Positions 2,863 to 21,546 of a stretch of 64,000 nucleotides of DNA are shown in pieces (position 1 is the first letter of the stretch; every line of letters starts with the position of its first letter). The notes beneath the pieces are model-generated. The model searched no databases, was not told the DNA's origin, and worked only from the letters and a program-made list of their open reading frames with translations. The DNA lies in assembly GCA_015065285.1 (NCBI GenBank), contig SVQP01000003.1:1-64000 (forward strand), written 5' to 3'. The DNA is from Oscillospiraceae bacterium (GTDB lineage Bacteria > Bacillota > Clostridia > Oscillospirales > CAG-272). The translations under genes and the position numbers were made by a program.

Positions 2863-2963
2863 TTTTTGCGTGGAAAATATTTCGTTGTGCCCGACAGGGT
2901 GCGACGTTTTTTTTGCGTCGGACATGCTATGATATAGCCAAAAGAACGAAAGGATGCAAGAGT

Positions 2964-3347
2964 ATGGGAAGAGCGACGTTTACTTATGAGGAAAGCGGAT
3001 ATTTTCTGCGCGTCAAGCTCAAGGGGGATATAGATCACCACAGCGCGGTTGCCACTCGCACGGGGATTGATACGCTGCTTTACAAAATACGCCCAAGGCG
3101 GCTTTATCTGGATCTGTCGTGTGTGGATTTTATGGATTCCTCGGGGCTTGGTTTGATCATGGGCAGATATGCGCTGATGAAGGAGATCGGTGGTGACGTG
3201 GTGGTGTGTGAGCCAAGCGCAGGCGTGGAGCGTGTGCTGAAGCTGGCGGGACTTGAACGGCTTGTGCGCGTTCAACGCAACAAAACGGACGGGGCAGCGC
3301 AGGACAAGCCCCGCGGACGCAAGGTCAGAAAGGAGGTGCTGAAATGA
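2964..3347 (+). CDS. spoIIAA: Anti-sigma F factor antagonist SpoIIAA
   Basis: STAS-domain motif LYLDLSCVDFMDSSGLGLIMGRY; upstream of spoIIAB and sigF in canonical order; ATG at 2964 with SD-like AAAGGA. Confidence 0.92.
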   Translation: MGRATFTYEESGYFLRVKLKGDIDHHSAVATRTGIDTLLYKIRPRRLYLDLSCVDFMDSSGLGLIMGRYALMKEIGGDVVVCEPSAGVERVLKLAGLERLVRVQRNKTDGAAQDKPRGRKVRKEVLK

Positions 3348-3808
3348 AATCGAATAAATTCAATGCCAAGGTGGTCAACAAAATGCAGATCAAGCTCCCC
3401 TCACTTTCTGTCAATGAAGGTATGGCACGAGCGGCAGCGGCAGCGTTTGTCTCGCAGTTGGATCCTACTGCGACCGAGCTTGCTGATATCAAATGCGCGG
3501 TATCCGAGGCGGTTACCAACTGCATTGTGCACGGCTATCGCGATACGGTGGGAGTTGTGCGCATGACGATCAAGCTGTGCGAGGGCAGGATCGTGCGTAT
3601 TGAGATCGTGGACAAGGGGTGCGGCATTGCCGACGTCAAGCAAGCGCGTCAGCCGCTGTTTACCACCGATGCGGCAGGTGAGCGGAGCGGCATGGGGTTT
3701 ACGGTCATGGAAAGCTTTACCGATGGGGTTCGCGTTTCTTCCAAGCCGGGGAAGGGAACCACTGTCACGATGGTCAAACTGCTGGATGCTCTCGATATCT
3801 CTACATAA
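3344..3808 (+). CDS. spoIIAB: Anti-sigma F factor SpoIIAB
   Basis: GHKL kinase motifs IKCAVSEAVTNCIVHGY, IVDKGCGIAD, SGMGFTVMESF; overlaps spoIIAA. Confidence 0.93.
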   Translation: MKSNKFNAKVVNKMQIKLPSLSVNEGMARAAAAAFVSQLDPTATELADIKCAVSEAVTNCIVHGYRDTVGVVRMTIKLCEGRIVRIEIVDKGCGIADVKQARQPLFTTDAAGERSGMGFTVMESFTDGVRVSSKPGKGTTVTMVKLLDALDIST

Positions 3809-3819
3809 ACGTTTAAGAG

Positions 3820-4578
3820 GTGATGGATATCGAAAACACGATAGCACAAGAACGCATGGAAAAGAACCGCGAGCTTTTGATTCTGGCGCAGGCGGGAGAT
3901 GAGCAGGCACTGGAGCAGCTCGTGGTGGACAATATGGCGCTGGTGCGCAGCGTGGCGATCAAATTTAAGGATCGCGGGACCGAATTTGAGGATCTGGTGC
4001 AGATCGGCACCATAGGCATGCTCAAGGCGATCCGCAGCTTTGAGGTGGAGCGCGGCACTGCTTTTTCCACCTATGCCGTGCCACTGATCGTGGGGGAGAT
4101 CCGCAAGCATTTGCGTGACGACGGACCCATCAAGGTGGGCAGGGAATACAAGCGCATGGGGGCTTTGCTTCTTGGCGAGCGAAATCGGATCATGGCACAG
4201 TCGGGGAAAGACCCTTCGATCAAGGAGCTTGCACAGCGTTGCGGAATTTCCGCAGAGGATGCCGCGATTGCACTGGATGCCATTGCACCCGTCTCATCCT
4301 TGTCTGAAACCGTGTATGATGACGGTGGATTGACGCTGGAGGGCACGCTGCCCGACCGTGACAGCGCAGATGAAACCGAGCGCATGTTTGACCGCCTGGC
4401 ACTCTCGCAAGCCATCGGACAGCTTGATCCGCTATGGCGCAAGATCGTACTGCTGCGGTATTGGCGCAATATGACCCAACAGCAGGTCGCAGCCGCGCTG
4501 GGACTGTCTCAGGTCAAGATCTCGCGCGAGGAAAAAAAGATCATGGCAAGGCTGAAAGAGCTGCTTACGGGGGCATAA
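3820..4578 (+). CDS. sigF: RNA polymerase sporulation sigma factor SigF
   Basis: Sigma-70 regions 2-4 (FEDLVQIGTIGMLKAIRSFEVERGTAFSTYAVPLIVGEIRKHLRDDGPIKV); third gene of spoIIA operon. Confidence 0.94.
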   Translation: MMDIENTIAQERMEKNRELLILAQAGDEQALEQLVVDNMALVRSVAIKFKDRGTEFEDLVQIGTIGMLKAIRSFEVERGTAFSTYAVPLIVGEIRKHLRDDGPIKVGREYKRMGALLLGERNRIMAQSGKDPSIKELAQRCGISAEDAAIALDAIAPVSSLSETVYDDGGLTLEGTLPDRDSADETERMFDRLALSQAIGQLDPLWRKIVLLRYWRNMTQQQVAAALGLSQVKISREEKKIMARLKELLTGA

Positions 4579-14034: not shown

Positions 14035-17028
14035 ATGATGAAAACAAAAACAAAAGGCAGGTTTTATCTCTCGCTGATCCTGTTCGGTCTGCTCGGTCAG
14101 ATCGCATGGGTGGTCGAGAACATGTACCTGAACGTGTTTATCTATAATACTTTCCGTGCGTCAGCAGGGGATATCCGCATGATGGTCAGCGCGTCTGCCG
14201 TTGCGGCAACCCTGACCACGGTATTCATGGGCGCGCTGTCGGATAAGATCGGCAAGCGAAAGCTGTTCATCGCGGGCGGCTACGTTGCATGGGGCATTTC
14301 GATCATGGCATTTGCGCTGATGCGCACCGATCTTTTGGGCATGATCTTTCCCGTTGCGGCAACCGCTGCCTCGGTGGGTATTTCGCTGACCATCGCGCTG
14401 GACTGCATCATGACCTTTTTCGGCTCTACCGCCAACGATGCAGCCTTTAACGCATGGCTGACCGACAGCACCACAGAAAAGAACCGCGGTGCTGCCGAGG
14501 GGCTCAATGCCATGATGCCGCTGGTGGCAATTCTTGCTGTGTTCGGTGGTTTTATGGCGTTTGATCTGCAAAAGAGCAGCAGCTGGACGTGGATCTTCTG
14601 CATCATCGGTGTGCTGGTGCTGGGCGCGGGTATTCTGGGCTTTTTCATTATTGAAGATCCCAAAATCGCCCCCTCCAAGGACGGATATTTCTCCACCGTG
14701 TTTTACGGATTCCGCCCCTCTACCGTCAAGCAGAATCTCAAGCTTTATTTGTATCTTGCCGTTTTCGTGGTGTTCAATATCGCCATTCAGATCTTTATGC
14801 CGTATCTGATCATCTACTACGAGGTTTCACTCGGAATGTCGGATTACGTGCTGATCATGGCGCCTGCCATTATTTTAGCGTCGGTTGCCACGGCACTCTG
14901 GGGCAGGGTATACGACAAAAAGGGCTTCAAGCTGACCGGTGTGATCGCGCTGATCAGTTTGTGCGCGGGCTTCGTTTTGCTGTATTTGTTCCGCAGCACG
15001 GTGCTTGTATTTATCGGCTCCTTGCTGATGATGTGCGGTTATCTTTGCGGAGCGGCTGTGTTCGGTGCCAAGATCCGCGACCTGACTCCTGCAGGTAAGG
15101 CAGGCAGATTGCAGGGCATCCGCATCTTTACGCAGGTGCTGCTGCCGGGCGTGATCGGACCCTGGATCGGTGAGCTGGTGCTTGCCGATGCAGAAAAAAT
15201 TCAGAATTCGGACGGTACGGAGTCCTTTGTACCGTCGGCGGATATTTTCTTGGCAGCGCTGGTTGCGGCAGCCGTTGTGCTGGCGCTTGTGCTGCTGATC
15301 AAGGATAAAAAGAAGCCCAATTTGCAAAAGCTGTACACGCCCTTTGAGGGTGATCCCGAGGCTTGGGAGAAGGAATATCCCAGACCCTCGATGCGTCGCG
15401 CAAGCTGGCAGAGCCTTTGCGGTGAATGGGAGCTTTCGGTTGTCTCCAAAAAGGGTACCGAGCACTTAGGCAAGATCCGCGTGCCGTTTTTGCCCGAAAG
15501 CAGACTTTCGGGGATTGAGCGCACGCTTGGTAAGGGCGAGGAATGGCTGTATGAGCGTGAATTTGATCTGCAGGAGAACGCCGGTAAGGTGCTCTTGCAC
15601 TTCGGTGCGGTGGATCAGATATGCACCGTGACGGTCAACGGTGAAAAGATATGCTGCCATGAGGGAGGATATCTGCCGTTTACCGTGGATATTTCAGCCC
15701 TTGTCAAGCATGGAAAAAACAGCATTGCCGTACAAGTGTCCGACACGCTTGACCACGCTCTTGGCTGGGGCAAGCAAAGACGCGACCGAGGCGGCATGTG
15801 GTATACGCCCGTCAGTGGCATCTGGCAGCCCGTATGGCTGGAGCACCTTCCCGAGCAGTATATTGAAAATATTCGCCTGACCCCTTCGCTTGATTCGGTC
15901 AAGCTTGAAATTGCGGGCGGTACGGGGGAATTCACCTTGTGCGTGCAGACTCCGGACGGTGCGGATACGGTCACGTTTACAGGGGATTCTTACATCTATC
16001 AGCCCAAGACCGCCATGCTTTGGACGCCCGAAAATCCTTATCTTTACGAGTTTACCCTGACCTCGGGTAAGGACTGCGTGCAATCCTATTTCGCACTGCG
16101 CACGGTTTCGGTGGAGCGTGTGGGCGGTACACCCCGCATGTGCCTGAACGGCAAGCCGTATTTCTTCCACGGGCTTTTGGATCAGGGCTATTTCCCGGAT
16201 GGCATTTATCTGCCGGGCAGCCCCGAGGGCTATGAGCACGATATTCTGACTGCCAAGAAAATGGGCTTTAATATGCTGCGCAAGCATATCAAGATAGAGC
16301 CGCAGACCTTCTATTACCTGTGCGATAAGCACGGTATGATCGTGTTCCAGGATATGGTCAACAGCGGAGATTACAGCTTCCTTGTAGATACCGCGCTGCC
16401 CACGATCGGATTTAAGCGCGGCATGACCCACAAGGCAAGCAAGCGCCGCAAGCAAGCCTTTTTTGCCGACAGCGAAGCAACCATCAAGCTGCTTTACAAT
16501 CACCCCTCTGTATGCTATTACACCATTTTCAACGAGGGCTGGGGACAGTTTGAAGCAGATAAGACCTATGATACACTAAGGCCCCTTGACCCTACGCGAA
16601 TCTGGGATACCACCTCGGGCTGGTTTTGGGAGCAGGGGAGCGACGTGCAGAGTGAGCATATCTACTTTAAAAAGATCAATATCAAGCCGTGGGGAGATCG
16701 CCCCGTGGTACTCTCCGAATTTGGCGGCTACGCCTGCCGCATAGAGGGGCATATTTTCAATCCCGATCACAATTACGGTTACAGCACCTATCCCGATCCT
16801 GTCGCATGGCAAAAGGCAACCGAGGCGCTGTACCGCGAGCAGATCATCCCGTCCATTCAAAAAAGCGGCTTGTGCGCAGCAGTGCTGACGCAGCTTTCGG
16901 ACGTGGAGGATGAAACCAACGGTCTTATGACCTATGACCGACAAAATGAAAAGGCAGACGCGACTGCAATGGCAGCGCTTGCCAAGGAACTTTACAACTG
17001 CTATGCCGACACGGCAGCAGGGAATTGA
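14035..17028 (+). CDS. Fusion protein: N-terminal MFS/GPH-type sugar transporter + C-terminal GH2 glycoside hydrolase
   Basis: 997-aa uninterrupted ORF. About residues 1-425 hydrophobic MFS-like (LSDKIGKRKLFIAGGY between TMs); from about 15391 GH2-like sandwich and TIM barrel (GGMWYTPVSGIWQPVWLE, FFHGLLDQGYFPDGIYLP, YYTIFNEGWGQF acid/base, VVLSEFGGYA nucleophile). Confidence 0.88.
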   Translation: MMKTKTKGRFYLSLILFGLLGQIAWVVENMYLNVFIYNTFRASAGDIRMMVSASAVAATLTTVFMGALSDKIGKRKLFIAGGYVAWGISIMAFALMRTDLLGMIFPVAATAASVGISLTIALDCIMTFFGSTANDAAFNAWLTDSTTEKNRGAAEGLNAMMPLVAILAVFGGFMAFDLQKSSSWTWIFCIIGVLVLGAGILGFFIIEDPKIAPSKDGYFSTVFYGFRPSTVKQNLKLYLYLAVFVVFNIAIQIFMPYLIIYYEVSLGMSDYVLIMAPAIILASVATALWGRVYDKKGFKLTGVIALISLCAGFVLLYLFRSTVLVFIGSLLMMCGYLCGAAVFGAKIRDLTPAGKAGRLQGIRIFTQVLLPGVIGPWIGELVLADAEKIQNSDGTESFVPSADIFLAALVAAAVVLALVLLIKDKKKPNLQKLYTPFEGDPEAWEKEYPRPSMRRASWQSLCGEWELSVVSKKGTEHLGKIRVPFLPESRLSGIERTLGKGEEWLYEREFDLQENAGKVLLHFGAVDQICTVTVNGEKICCHEGGYLPFTVDISALVKHGKNSIAVQVSDTLDHALGWGKQRRDRGGMWYTPVSGIWQPVWLEHLPEQYIENIRLTPSLDSVKLEIAGGTGEFTLCVQTPDGADTVTFTGDSYIYQPKTAMLWTPENPYLYEFTLTSGKDCVQSYFALRTVSVERVGGTPRMCLNGKPYFFHGLLDQGYFPDGIYLPGSPEGYEHDILTAKKMGFNMLRKHIKIEPQTFYYLCDKHGMIVFQDMVNSGDYSFLVDTALPTIGFKRGMTHKASKRRKQAFFADSEATIKLLYNHPSVCYYTIFNEGWGQFEADKTYDTLRPLDPTRIWDTTSGWFWEQGSDVQSEHIYFKKINIKPWGDRPVVLSEFGGYACRIEGHIFNPDHNYGYSTYPDPVAWQKATEALYREQIIPSIQKSGLCAAVLTQLSDVEDETNGLMTYDRQNEKADATAMAALAKELYNCYADTAAGN

Positions 17029-19442: not shown

Positions 19443-19823
19443 ATGGCGAACTATAGAAGAGGCAGAATCAATGACGAGATGCAAAAGGAGCTGATGGTCA
19501 TTTTGCGCAGCGTCAAGGATCCGAGAGTCAGCGATGCGTTTGTCAGCGTGACCGCTGTGGATACCACTCCCGATCTGAAATATGCAAAGGTGTATTATTC
19601 TTGCCTTTCCGGCGATAAAAAAGACGTACAGAAGGGCTTGAAGCAGGCAAGCGGATACATGCGTTCCCAGCTTGCCAGAACCTTGAATTTGCGCATGACG
19701 CCCGAGCTGACCTTTATTGAGGATGCTTCGGTAGAGCATGGCGCAAGAATCGCGAAAATACTGGAAAATATTGAATTCCATGATGAGATCATGGAGGAGG
19801 ATATAAATGGAAAGCAAGAATGA
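19443..19823 (+). CDS. rbfA: 30S ribosome-binding factor A
   Basis: RRGRINDEMQKELMVILRSVKDPRVSDAFVSVTAVDTTPDLKYAKVYYS; PELTFIEDASVEHGARI. Confidence 0.95.
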   Translation: MANYRRGRINDEMQKELMVILRSVKDPRVSDAFVSVTAVDTTPDLKYAKVYYSCLSGDKKDVQKGLKQASGYMRSQLARTLNLRMTPELTFIEDASVEHGARIAKILENIEFHDEIMEEDINGKQE

Positions 19824-20844
19824 TCAGCAATTCCGTGCGCTAACTCTGACGCAGACAGCTCTGGAACTTGCCAAAAGGCAGGACACCTTGATCGTTTTTC
19901 ATTCGAATCCCGATGCGGATGCGGTTGGCTCTGCATTTGCGCTCAAATTAATGCTCGAATCGCTTGGCATGCGTGCATATTGCGTATGCTCCAGCGGGAT
20001 TCCCAAGCGTTATCGCTTCTTGACCGAAACCTTGCAGGACGCAGCAACGTTTGAATCGATTCCCAAGGATTTTACTGATTTCAGAATTATCACCGTGGAT
20101 ACTGCCGCAGTTGTGCAGATGGGTGCTATGAGTGAGCCCTTTGGCAATCGCGTCAGCCTGATGATCGACCACCATGCAAAAAATTCCCCTTATGCCAACT
20201 ATCTGATTGATTCCGAAGCAGCGGCTACGGGTGAGATTTTGTTTGATCTTCTGCGCCTGTTCCAGGCAAACGGCATTGCTGTCAGGGTCAATCCTTTGGT
20301 GTATAGCCTGTTGTATGCTGCCATCAGCGGTGATACCGGATGTTTCCGCTACAGCAACGTCACGGCAGACACAATGCGTCGCACCGCGCTTTTGCTGGAA
20401 TACGAGGTACCGATTGCGGATATCAACTATCACCTCTTTGAGGTGAAGTCGAGTACGGTTATGCGCGTTGAGCATGCAGGCTATGACAGACTCAAAATCC
20501 ATTGCTCCGGCAAGCTGGCGATGATCACGTTCCCCTATATGGAGAAGATGAGATTGCAGGCTAACGATACCGAGACAGAGACACTGATCGACGTTGCCAG
20601 AAGCGTGGAGGATACCTACGTGGCAGCCGTGATCAAGCAGCTCTCGGAGAGCCTTCGCTTCCGCATTTCTCTGCGCTCCAACGTGAATATTGACGTCGCG
20701 CAGATCTGTGAAAAATTCGGCGGCGGCGGTCACGTGCGTGCAGCCGGCTGCACCATGTATGCCGATCATATCGACCAGGCTGCAGATAGAATTATCGCTG
20801 CTGTACAGGAAGCAATTGACGAATACGAAAAACGTAAAAAGTAA
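19807..20844 (+). CDS. DHH/DHHA1 phosphoesterase (NrnA-like)
   Basis: IVFHSNPDADAVGSAFAL, DHHAKNSPYANYL, GGGGHVRAAGCTM; follows rbfA. Confidence 0.9.
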   Translation: MESKNDQQFRALTLTQTALELAKRQDTLIVFHSNPDADAVGSAFALKLMLESLGMRAYCVCSSGIPKRYRFLTETLQDAATFESIPKDFTDFRIITVDTAAVVQMGAMSEPFGNRVSLMIDHHAKNSPYANYLIDSEAAATGEILFDLLRLFQANGIAVRVNPLVYSLLYAAISGDTGCFRYSNVTADTMRRTALLLEYEVPIADINYHLFEVKSSTVMRVEHAGYDRLKIHCSGKLAMITFPYMEKMRLQANDTETETLIDVARSVEDTYVAAVIKQLSESLRFRISLRSNVNIDVAQICEKFGGGGHVRAAGCTMYADHIDQAADRIIAAVQEAIDEYEKRKK

Positions 20845-20845
20845 T

Positions 20846-20875
20846 GAATAAAATATCCTTCCCGGGGCAATCATA
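20846..20875 (+). promoter_or_regulatory. Candidate sigmaF promoter of spoIIR
   Basis: GAATA (20846-20850), 15 bp, GGCAATCATA (20866-20875); one mismatch to the recalled -10 consensus GGNNANAHTR. Confidence 0.55.
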
Positions 20876-20920
20876 GCCTTGTCGTAAGACAGATTATGAA
20901 AGCGAAGGGAAGGATATTTT
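20850..20920 (+). promoter_or_regulatory. Long-range RNA stem covering the spoIIR SD
   Basis: AAAATATCCTTCCC (20850-20863) perfectly complementary to GGGAAGGATATTTT (20907-20920), which contains the SD 9 nt before ATG 20923. Confidence 0.6.
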
Positions 20921-20922
20921 TT

Positions 20923-21546
20923 ATGTATAAGAGGATACTTACGGGTGGAATCGTCCTGCTGTTTATTTTGGGTATTTTCAGCGTGCTGCCCATTCACGGG
21001 GAGCAGGAGATTTATGAGAGTGTGGTCAGGCTGCACGTGCTTGCCAATTCGGACAGCGAGCAGGATCAAGCCTTAAAGCTGCTGGTTCGCGACGAGGTGC
21101 TGCGGCAAAGCGAGCCGCTTTTGCGCGATTGCAAAAGTCGCGAGCAGGCGATCAGAATCCTTGACGAGAATCAAAGCCTTTTGCAACAGGCTGCGCAAGC
21201 GATTGTGCTGGAGCATGGATATGATTATCCGGTTACAATCCTGCTTGGAAAAGAGGAATACCCTACCAAGAATTATGAAAATTGCTGTTTTCCGAGCGGC
21301 ACCTACGTTTCTTTGCGCATCTGTATCGGAGAGGCGGAAGGGCAGAACTGGTGGTGCGTGCTGTTTCCGCCGCTTTGCCTCTCGGCAGCAAGTGCGGACG
21401 ACGAGAAAAGCAACGAGGACGCCTTTATTTCGGTGGGCTTGACGTCAGAGCAGTACCGCGTCATAACAGAAACGGACAACGTCAAATACCGCATTCGATT
21501 CAAGGTGCTTGAGGCTGTGCAGGATCTGTTTGGAAAGAAAAACTGA
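20923..21546 (+). CDS. spoIIR: Stage II sporulation protein R
   Basis: VVRLHVLANSDSEQDQALKLLVRDEVL, YPVTILLGKEEYPTKNYENCCFPSGTYVSLRICIGEAEGQNWWCVLFPPLC. Confidence 0.93.
   Translation: MYKRILTGGIVLLFILGIFSVLPIHGEQEIYESVVRLHVLANSDSEQDQALKLLVRDEVLRQSEPLLRDCKSREQAIRILDENQSLLQQAAQAIVLEHGYDYPVTILLGKEEYPTKNYENCCFPSGTYVSLRICIGEAEGQNWWCVLFPPLCLSAASADDEKSNEDAFISVGLTSEQYRVITETDNVKYRIRFKVLEAVQDLFGKKN

Follow-up and report, generated by a model that had tools for sequence, protein, structure and literature searches.

The spoIIR leader and its neighbours

The window, that is, the whole stretch of 64,000 nucleotides that was analysed, comes from an Oscillospiraceae bacterium and contains spoIIR, which was identified with the TIGR02837 equivalog model (159.8 bits against a cut-off of 151.9). 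SpoIIR is the signal that couples the forespore to the mother cell. Upstream of the gene and on the same strand lie a DHH/DHHA1 phosphoesterase gene and rbfA (Table 1), from which, judging by gene arrangement, transcription may enter spoIIR. The stop codon of the DHH gene is 1 nt before the -35 element of the spoIIR promoter. A gene for a TMEM164-family protein (Pfam PF14808; 18615-19433) lies directly upstream of rbfA.

Table 1. Positions in the window of the spoIIR leader elements and of the adjoining genes
Feature	Position	Strand	Basis
rbfA, housekeeping gene, possible source of read-through	19443..19823	+	TIGR00082, above cut-off
DHH/DHHA1 phosphoesterase (NrnA-like) gene, directly upstream of spoIIR	19807..20844	+	PF01368, PF02272
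-35-like element GAATA	20846..20850	+	Sequence; motif shared upstream of most spoIIR genes of the family
5' arm of repeat, AAAATATCCTTCCC, anti-Shine-Dalgarno, within promoter spacer	20850..20863	+	Sequence; identical in two same-genus relatives
Loop with inner helix (20871-20876/20894-20899)	20864..20906	+	Fold; sequence diverged within genus
-10-like element GGCAATCATA	20866..20875	+	Sequence; family alignment
Predicted sigmaF transcription start, ~7 nt past the -10	20882..20882	+	Inference
3' arm of repeat, GGGAAGGATATTTT	20907..20920	+	Sequence
Shine-Dalgarno AAGGA, in 3' arm	20910..20914	+	Sequence
T6 tract between Shine-Dalgarno and ATG, possible terminator tail	20917..20922	+	Sequence; terminator-like score
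spoIIR	20923..21546	+	TIGR02837, PF09551

The spoIIR leader holds a perfect 14-bp inverted repeat with 43 nt between its arms, and the Shine-Dalgarno (SD) sequence is inside the 3' arm, the ATG starting 8 nt further on. RNA covering 20840-20935 folds at -33.5 kcal/mol (z = -5.9), which none of 200 dinucleotide shuffles equalled. The repeat is single-copy across the 2.1-Mb genome, which speaks against membership of a repeat family or a mobile element. GAATA, a 15-nt spacer and the -10-like element form a candidate sigmaF-type promoter that overlaps the 5' arm. The initial annotation had described both the repeat and the promoter; the arms proved to be exact reverse complements, and the promoter elements are present, a GNATAA-N14/15-GGnnAAnnnTR-like site recurring at the same place before spoIIR in most family members. 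A genome-wide search with the bare sigmaF pattern gave 58 matches, barely more than the 37 for a reversed control, and these matches were therefore left out of the evidence. An in-frame upstream ATG at 20896 was ruled out as the spoIIR start, the equivalent ATG being out of frame in one same-genus species.

The element is kept in both other species of the genus for which the region is covered (84-89% identity). Both arms are identical across the three species (28/28 nt) and the loop of 41-43 nt has diverged, so that the evidence for covariation comes only from other genera. The gene next to spoIIR is rbfA in the two relatives and the DHH gene in the window; the arms being kept despite this difference in neighbour, the element goes with spoIIR and not with one particular upstream gene. 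The named relatives are uncultured Clostridia or Oscillospiraceae, many of them from ruminant guts. As the source contigs are metagenome-assembled, mis-assembly is possible at any one locus; the pattern recurs in independent assemblies.

Elsewhere in the window, a spoIIAA-spoIIAB-sigF operon lies at 2913-4578, ~16 kb upstream of spoIIR, so that the sigma factor is encoded close to its target; of the three genes, spoIIAB passes its model, and spoIIAA and sigF fall below the curated cut-offs. A single 997-aa frame at 14035-17028 combines an MFS transporter (residues 29-376) with a glycoside hydrolase of family 2 (residues ~500-970) and is a candidate for an unusual transporter-enzyme fusion, or possibly an assembly error.

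Covariation of the arms and orientation of the upstream gene

spoIIR is present in 344 of the 397 family genomes. About 130 upstream regions were sampled and 126 loci compared, all from the best-scoring SpoIIR matches at the top of a ranked list, so that the set leans towards genera close to the window. The arms vary between species with their complementarity kept, as in CCTTCCTTTCGG/CCGAAAGGAAGG (locus L099), CCTCTCTTT/AAAGAGAGG (L109), AAAAAGCTCCTTTT/AAAAGGAGCTTTTT (L048) and, with one mismatch, ACCTCCCGTTTGGT/ACCAAACAGGAGGT (L061). A spacer/SD duplex of -14 kcal/mol or lower was found for 60 of 126 cognate pairs and 6.6% of cross-genus swaps, and one of -16 kcal/mol or lower for 54 of 126 and 2.6%, respectively. 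In a helix scan, 50 of the 126 loci were above the 97.5% swap threshold. These thresholds come from swapped-partner nulls and not from a tree; permutation within genera is the best control for relatedness.

In genus g29, at seven positions beside the SD core, with the SD itself excluded, 4.68 were paired on average compared with 2.82 when arms were re-paired within the genus, and none of 2,000 re-pairings equalled this. As 19 of 20 g29 loci carry the stem, selection bias in the test is small, and pairing that extends beyond the SD core is not accounted for by complementarity to a generic SD. In genus g33, where the arms are nearly uniform, the same test was not significant (273 of 2,000 re-pairings equal or better). 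Column-wise covariation (MAFFT alignment, RNAalifold) was uninformative for spoIIR leaders because the register of the helix shifts from one species to the next, and it was replaced by the swap tests. Covariation of the arms, whose absence the initial annotation had named as grounds for refuting its proposal, came out in favour of that proposal both in the swaps among 126 loci and in g29.

Presence of the stem depends on the orientation of the upstream gene, which was assigned by homology; assignments from the longest open reading frame, confounded by antisense frames in G+C-rich genes, were replaced. Where a co-directional gene ends less than 60 nt away (64 family loci), 47 loci have a strong helix between the promoter and the SD or AUG, falling to 0-1 of 64 when the 5' window is slid 40-160 nt upstream. 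Behind a divergent gene the stem occurs at 1 of 42 loci. The association holds under within-genus permutation (p = 5e-5, the lowest value that 20,000 permutations allow) and for genus medians (p = 2e-4). It is also seen inside genus g49, in which stems measure 15-18 bp at six loci whose neighbour lies within 16-18 nt, and loci with a distant or divergent neighbour have stem scores at null level. Some close co-directional loci, for example L018 and L028, lack a strong stem, and the position of the 5' arm differs: in genus g9 it is the 7 nt between the -10 and the expected start, giving a weaker stem (7-8 bp in most), and in g14 it starts in the -10.

The stem extends to other families of the order, being found at 33 of 88 spoIIR loci (named records included) in at least eight further families, again mainly behind co-directional genes (30/57, compared with 2/27 behind divergent ones; p = 4e-5). 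Some of these stems are longer than that of the window (20 bp at L170 and 23 bp at L225, where the 5' arm is the spacer plus the -10). Outside the order it occurs at 3 of 30 loci, so that the device is largely, though not exclusively, characteristic of this order.

A similar arrangement precedes sigG in the genome of the window (locus L366, G000:C19, ~68950-69000). There a 15-bp repeat without mismatches, closed by a 5-nt loop (AAACTCCCCTTGACG/CGTCAAGGGGAGTTT), has its 5' arm running from inside the -10 to near the expected start and the SD in its 3' arm; by its layout it appears to follow the same logic as the spoIIR device. Across the family, sigG has a stem at 8 of 30 loci, compared with 2.3% of swaps, and gpr, which is mostly behind divergent genes, at 3 of 29. 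Promoter-embedded stems were observed at the gpr genes L358 and L362, which are behind co-directional neighbours.

Access to the start site, termination and competing explanations

The predicted cost of opening the SD-AUG region differs sharply between long RNA and RNA from the predicted start, with medians for 57 stem-bearing loci of 16.3 and 4.8 kcal/mol, respectively. With only the spacer shuffled, the long RNA costs 6.2 kcal/mol to open. Loci with no stem give 6.2 kcal/mol for long and 3.9 kcal/mol for short RNA. In the window the cost drops from ~18 to 5.5 kcal/mol once the RNA 5' end passes 20862 and is flat for 5' ends from 20864 to 20888, so that the conclusion is independent of the exact sigmaF start. 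These predictions agree with the initial annotation, in which read-through RNA hides the SD and the sigmaF transcript, lacking the 5' arm, exposes it; the comparative evidence likewise favours a sigmaF start downstream of that arm, predicted at 20882.

It is probable (about 0.7), from the sequence, folding and comparative evidence, that the repeat is a silencer of read-through into spoIIR. RNA entering from the co-directional rbfA/DHH genes would carry both arms and fold, burying the region from the SD to the AUG, and in members with a U-tract, including the window, the same hairpin may also halt a share of the polymerases immediately ahead of the start codon. In the forespore, sigmaF RNA polymerase would start RNA downstream of the 5' arm, no hairpin would form and SpoIIR would be made. 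The spacer of the promoter doubles as the 5' arm, which would make the hairpin impossible in sigmaF RNA. The comparative evidence thus supports the earlier proposal of a translational lock in which the promoter acts as the occluding arm, and the dependence on orientation (47/64 compared with 1/42), which that proposal had not predicted, points the same way.

The strongest competitor, though an unlikely one, is that the repeat is solely an intrinsic terminator of the upstream operon, SD burial following incidentally from the packing of terminator, promoter and SD into 80 bp. T6 follows the stem in the window, the last 8 nt ahead of the ATG include at least five T at 42 of 50 stem-bearing family loci compared with 17 of the other 76, and the same dependence on orientation is expected. 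The terminator-like score, calculated by formula and not with a dedicated terminator program, has a positive value in the window (13.7) and at 34 of 58 stem-bearing loci, and it is well below the 36-47 of three compact terminators in the window. The spoIIR hairpin is long (63 nt) and was not listed by a simple terminator scan of the window with loops of 3-8 nt. A further argument against termination alone is that, within the genus, spoIIR retains the element although different genes lie upstream. Moreover, the six g49 loci (terminator scores negative), L102, L174, L240 and L302 lack a U-tract and have stems that cover the AUG, the first codons or both; L014, L019 and L063, as well as L174 and L240, are examples of pairing over the AUG with no U-tract. 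The stems of L174, L240, L302 and L102 pair the promoter with the start or first codons and not with the SD, so that N-terminal codons join the pairing. Burial of SD or AUG is thus the common denominator. At the 42 of 50 stem loci with a U-tract, selection could be partly or wholly for termination, and termination may add to occlusion at most stems; it is likely a partner of occlusion and not the main function. The terminator role that the initial annotation had allowed for accordingly stands as a possible co-mechanism, given T6 and the score of 13.7, and does not cover the loci whose stem has no U-tract.

Three other explanations are far less probable than termination. An inverted repeat overlapping a promoter could be an operator for a dimeric regulator of spoIIR, but the arms are 57 bp apart from start to start, and relatives change arm sequence freely while keeping the pairing, where a protein site would keep its sequence. 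The 3' arm also tracks the SD or start codon, and presence of the repeat tracks the orientation of the upstream gene, which leaves an operator very improbable. A sensory leader, riboswitch-like or protein-regulated, in which a conserved inner loop switches the SD in read-through RNA, is no better placed: the loop does form an inner helix in the window, but its sequence and length vary widely in relatives, unlike a ligand pocket, and no Rfam family matches the element (the sole match, snoRNA-like and due to chance at E = 4.9, is elsewhere in the searched stretch). Least credible of all is chance or a compositional artefact, in which the SD-ATG spacer is rich in T, the -35 is rich in A and the SD is generic. 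SDs are alike across species, and any pyrimidine-rich spacer should therefore be complementary to them to some degree (cross-genus swaps average -8.2 kcal/mol); nevertheless shuffles, swaps, the SD-excluded flanks and the shifted windows all reject it.

Proposed read-through silencing and known parallels

How a cell whose spoIIR lies downstream of housekeeping genes avoids making SpoIIR early appears to be a new question. In Clostridium difficile, residual spoIIR expression in the absence of sigmaF is presumed to be enough for pro-sigmaE processing (PMC3789822), which illustrates why leaky spoIIR matters; silencing read-through RNA may benefit the cell by preventing untimely activation of pro-sigmaE. 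A wider reading, which is tentative and somewhat short of an even chance, is that forespore commitment genes across the order (spoIIR and, in part, sigG) have repeatedly re-invented a silencer in which the core of the sigmaF promoter is the anti-SD or anti-AUG arm, gained and lost with the orientation of the neighbour and acting by occlusion of the ribosome-binding site (RBS) with partial termination. A rule is suggested whereby, for an alternative-sigma gene behind an active operon, selection makes the promoter one arm of an RNA lock. Such a rule would explain promoter-spacer sequences that otherwise appear arbitrary. It would also mean that RNA-seq read-through across these genes is no sure sign of protein, and the device would provide a compact promoter with built-in insulation of its gene.

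The principle of occlusion is not new, being established for T4 I-TevI and proposed for Bacillus subtilis sigG. No report of a read-through hairpin for spoIIR was found in a literature search that was thin in subscription journals. In T4 I-TevI, I-TevII, I-TevIII and segB, and in Aeh1 mobE, a stable structure hides the RBS, but only in transcripts that come from early or middle promoters further upstream; RNA from the late promoter just upstream of the gene is too short for the hairpin (PMC2988022). The spoIIR RBS is likewise predicted to be hidden in upstream-initiated RNA only. However, the phage genes are timed by the stage of infection, whereas spoIIR encodes a developmental signal of the cell itself and is controlled by a forespore sigma factor.

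Another parallel is sigG (spoIIIG) of B. subtilis, for which a hairpin of 20 bp or more is proposed to block translation of RNA that reads through from spoIIG, whereas the transcript from sigG's own promoter is unable to form it; a separate RBS hairpin of 5 bp, present in that transcript, dampens sigG 2-4 fold (PMC5942855). The 5-bp hairpin resembles the spoIIR stem in occluding the RBS of a forespore gene, but the predicted sigmaF transcript of spoIIR does not contain the stem. For the long hairpin and the spoIIR stem alike, a forespore gene is behind an operon that reads through (in spoIIR, by prediction) and the hairpin is excluded from RNA of the gene's own promoter (PMC5942855). Nevertheless, spoIIR is another gene in another bacterial group, its 5' arm is the promoter spacer or the -10, and its stem, often followed by a U-tract, covaries over many genera and tracks the orientation of the upstream gene.
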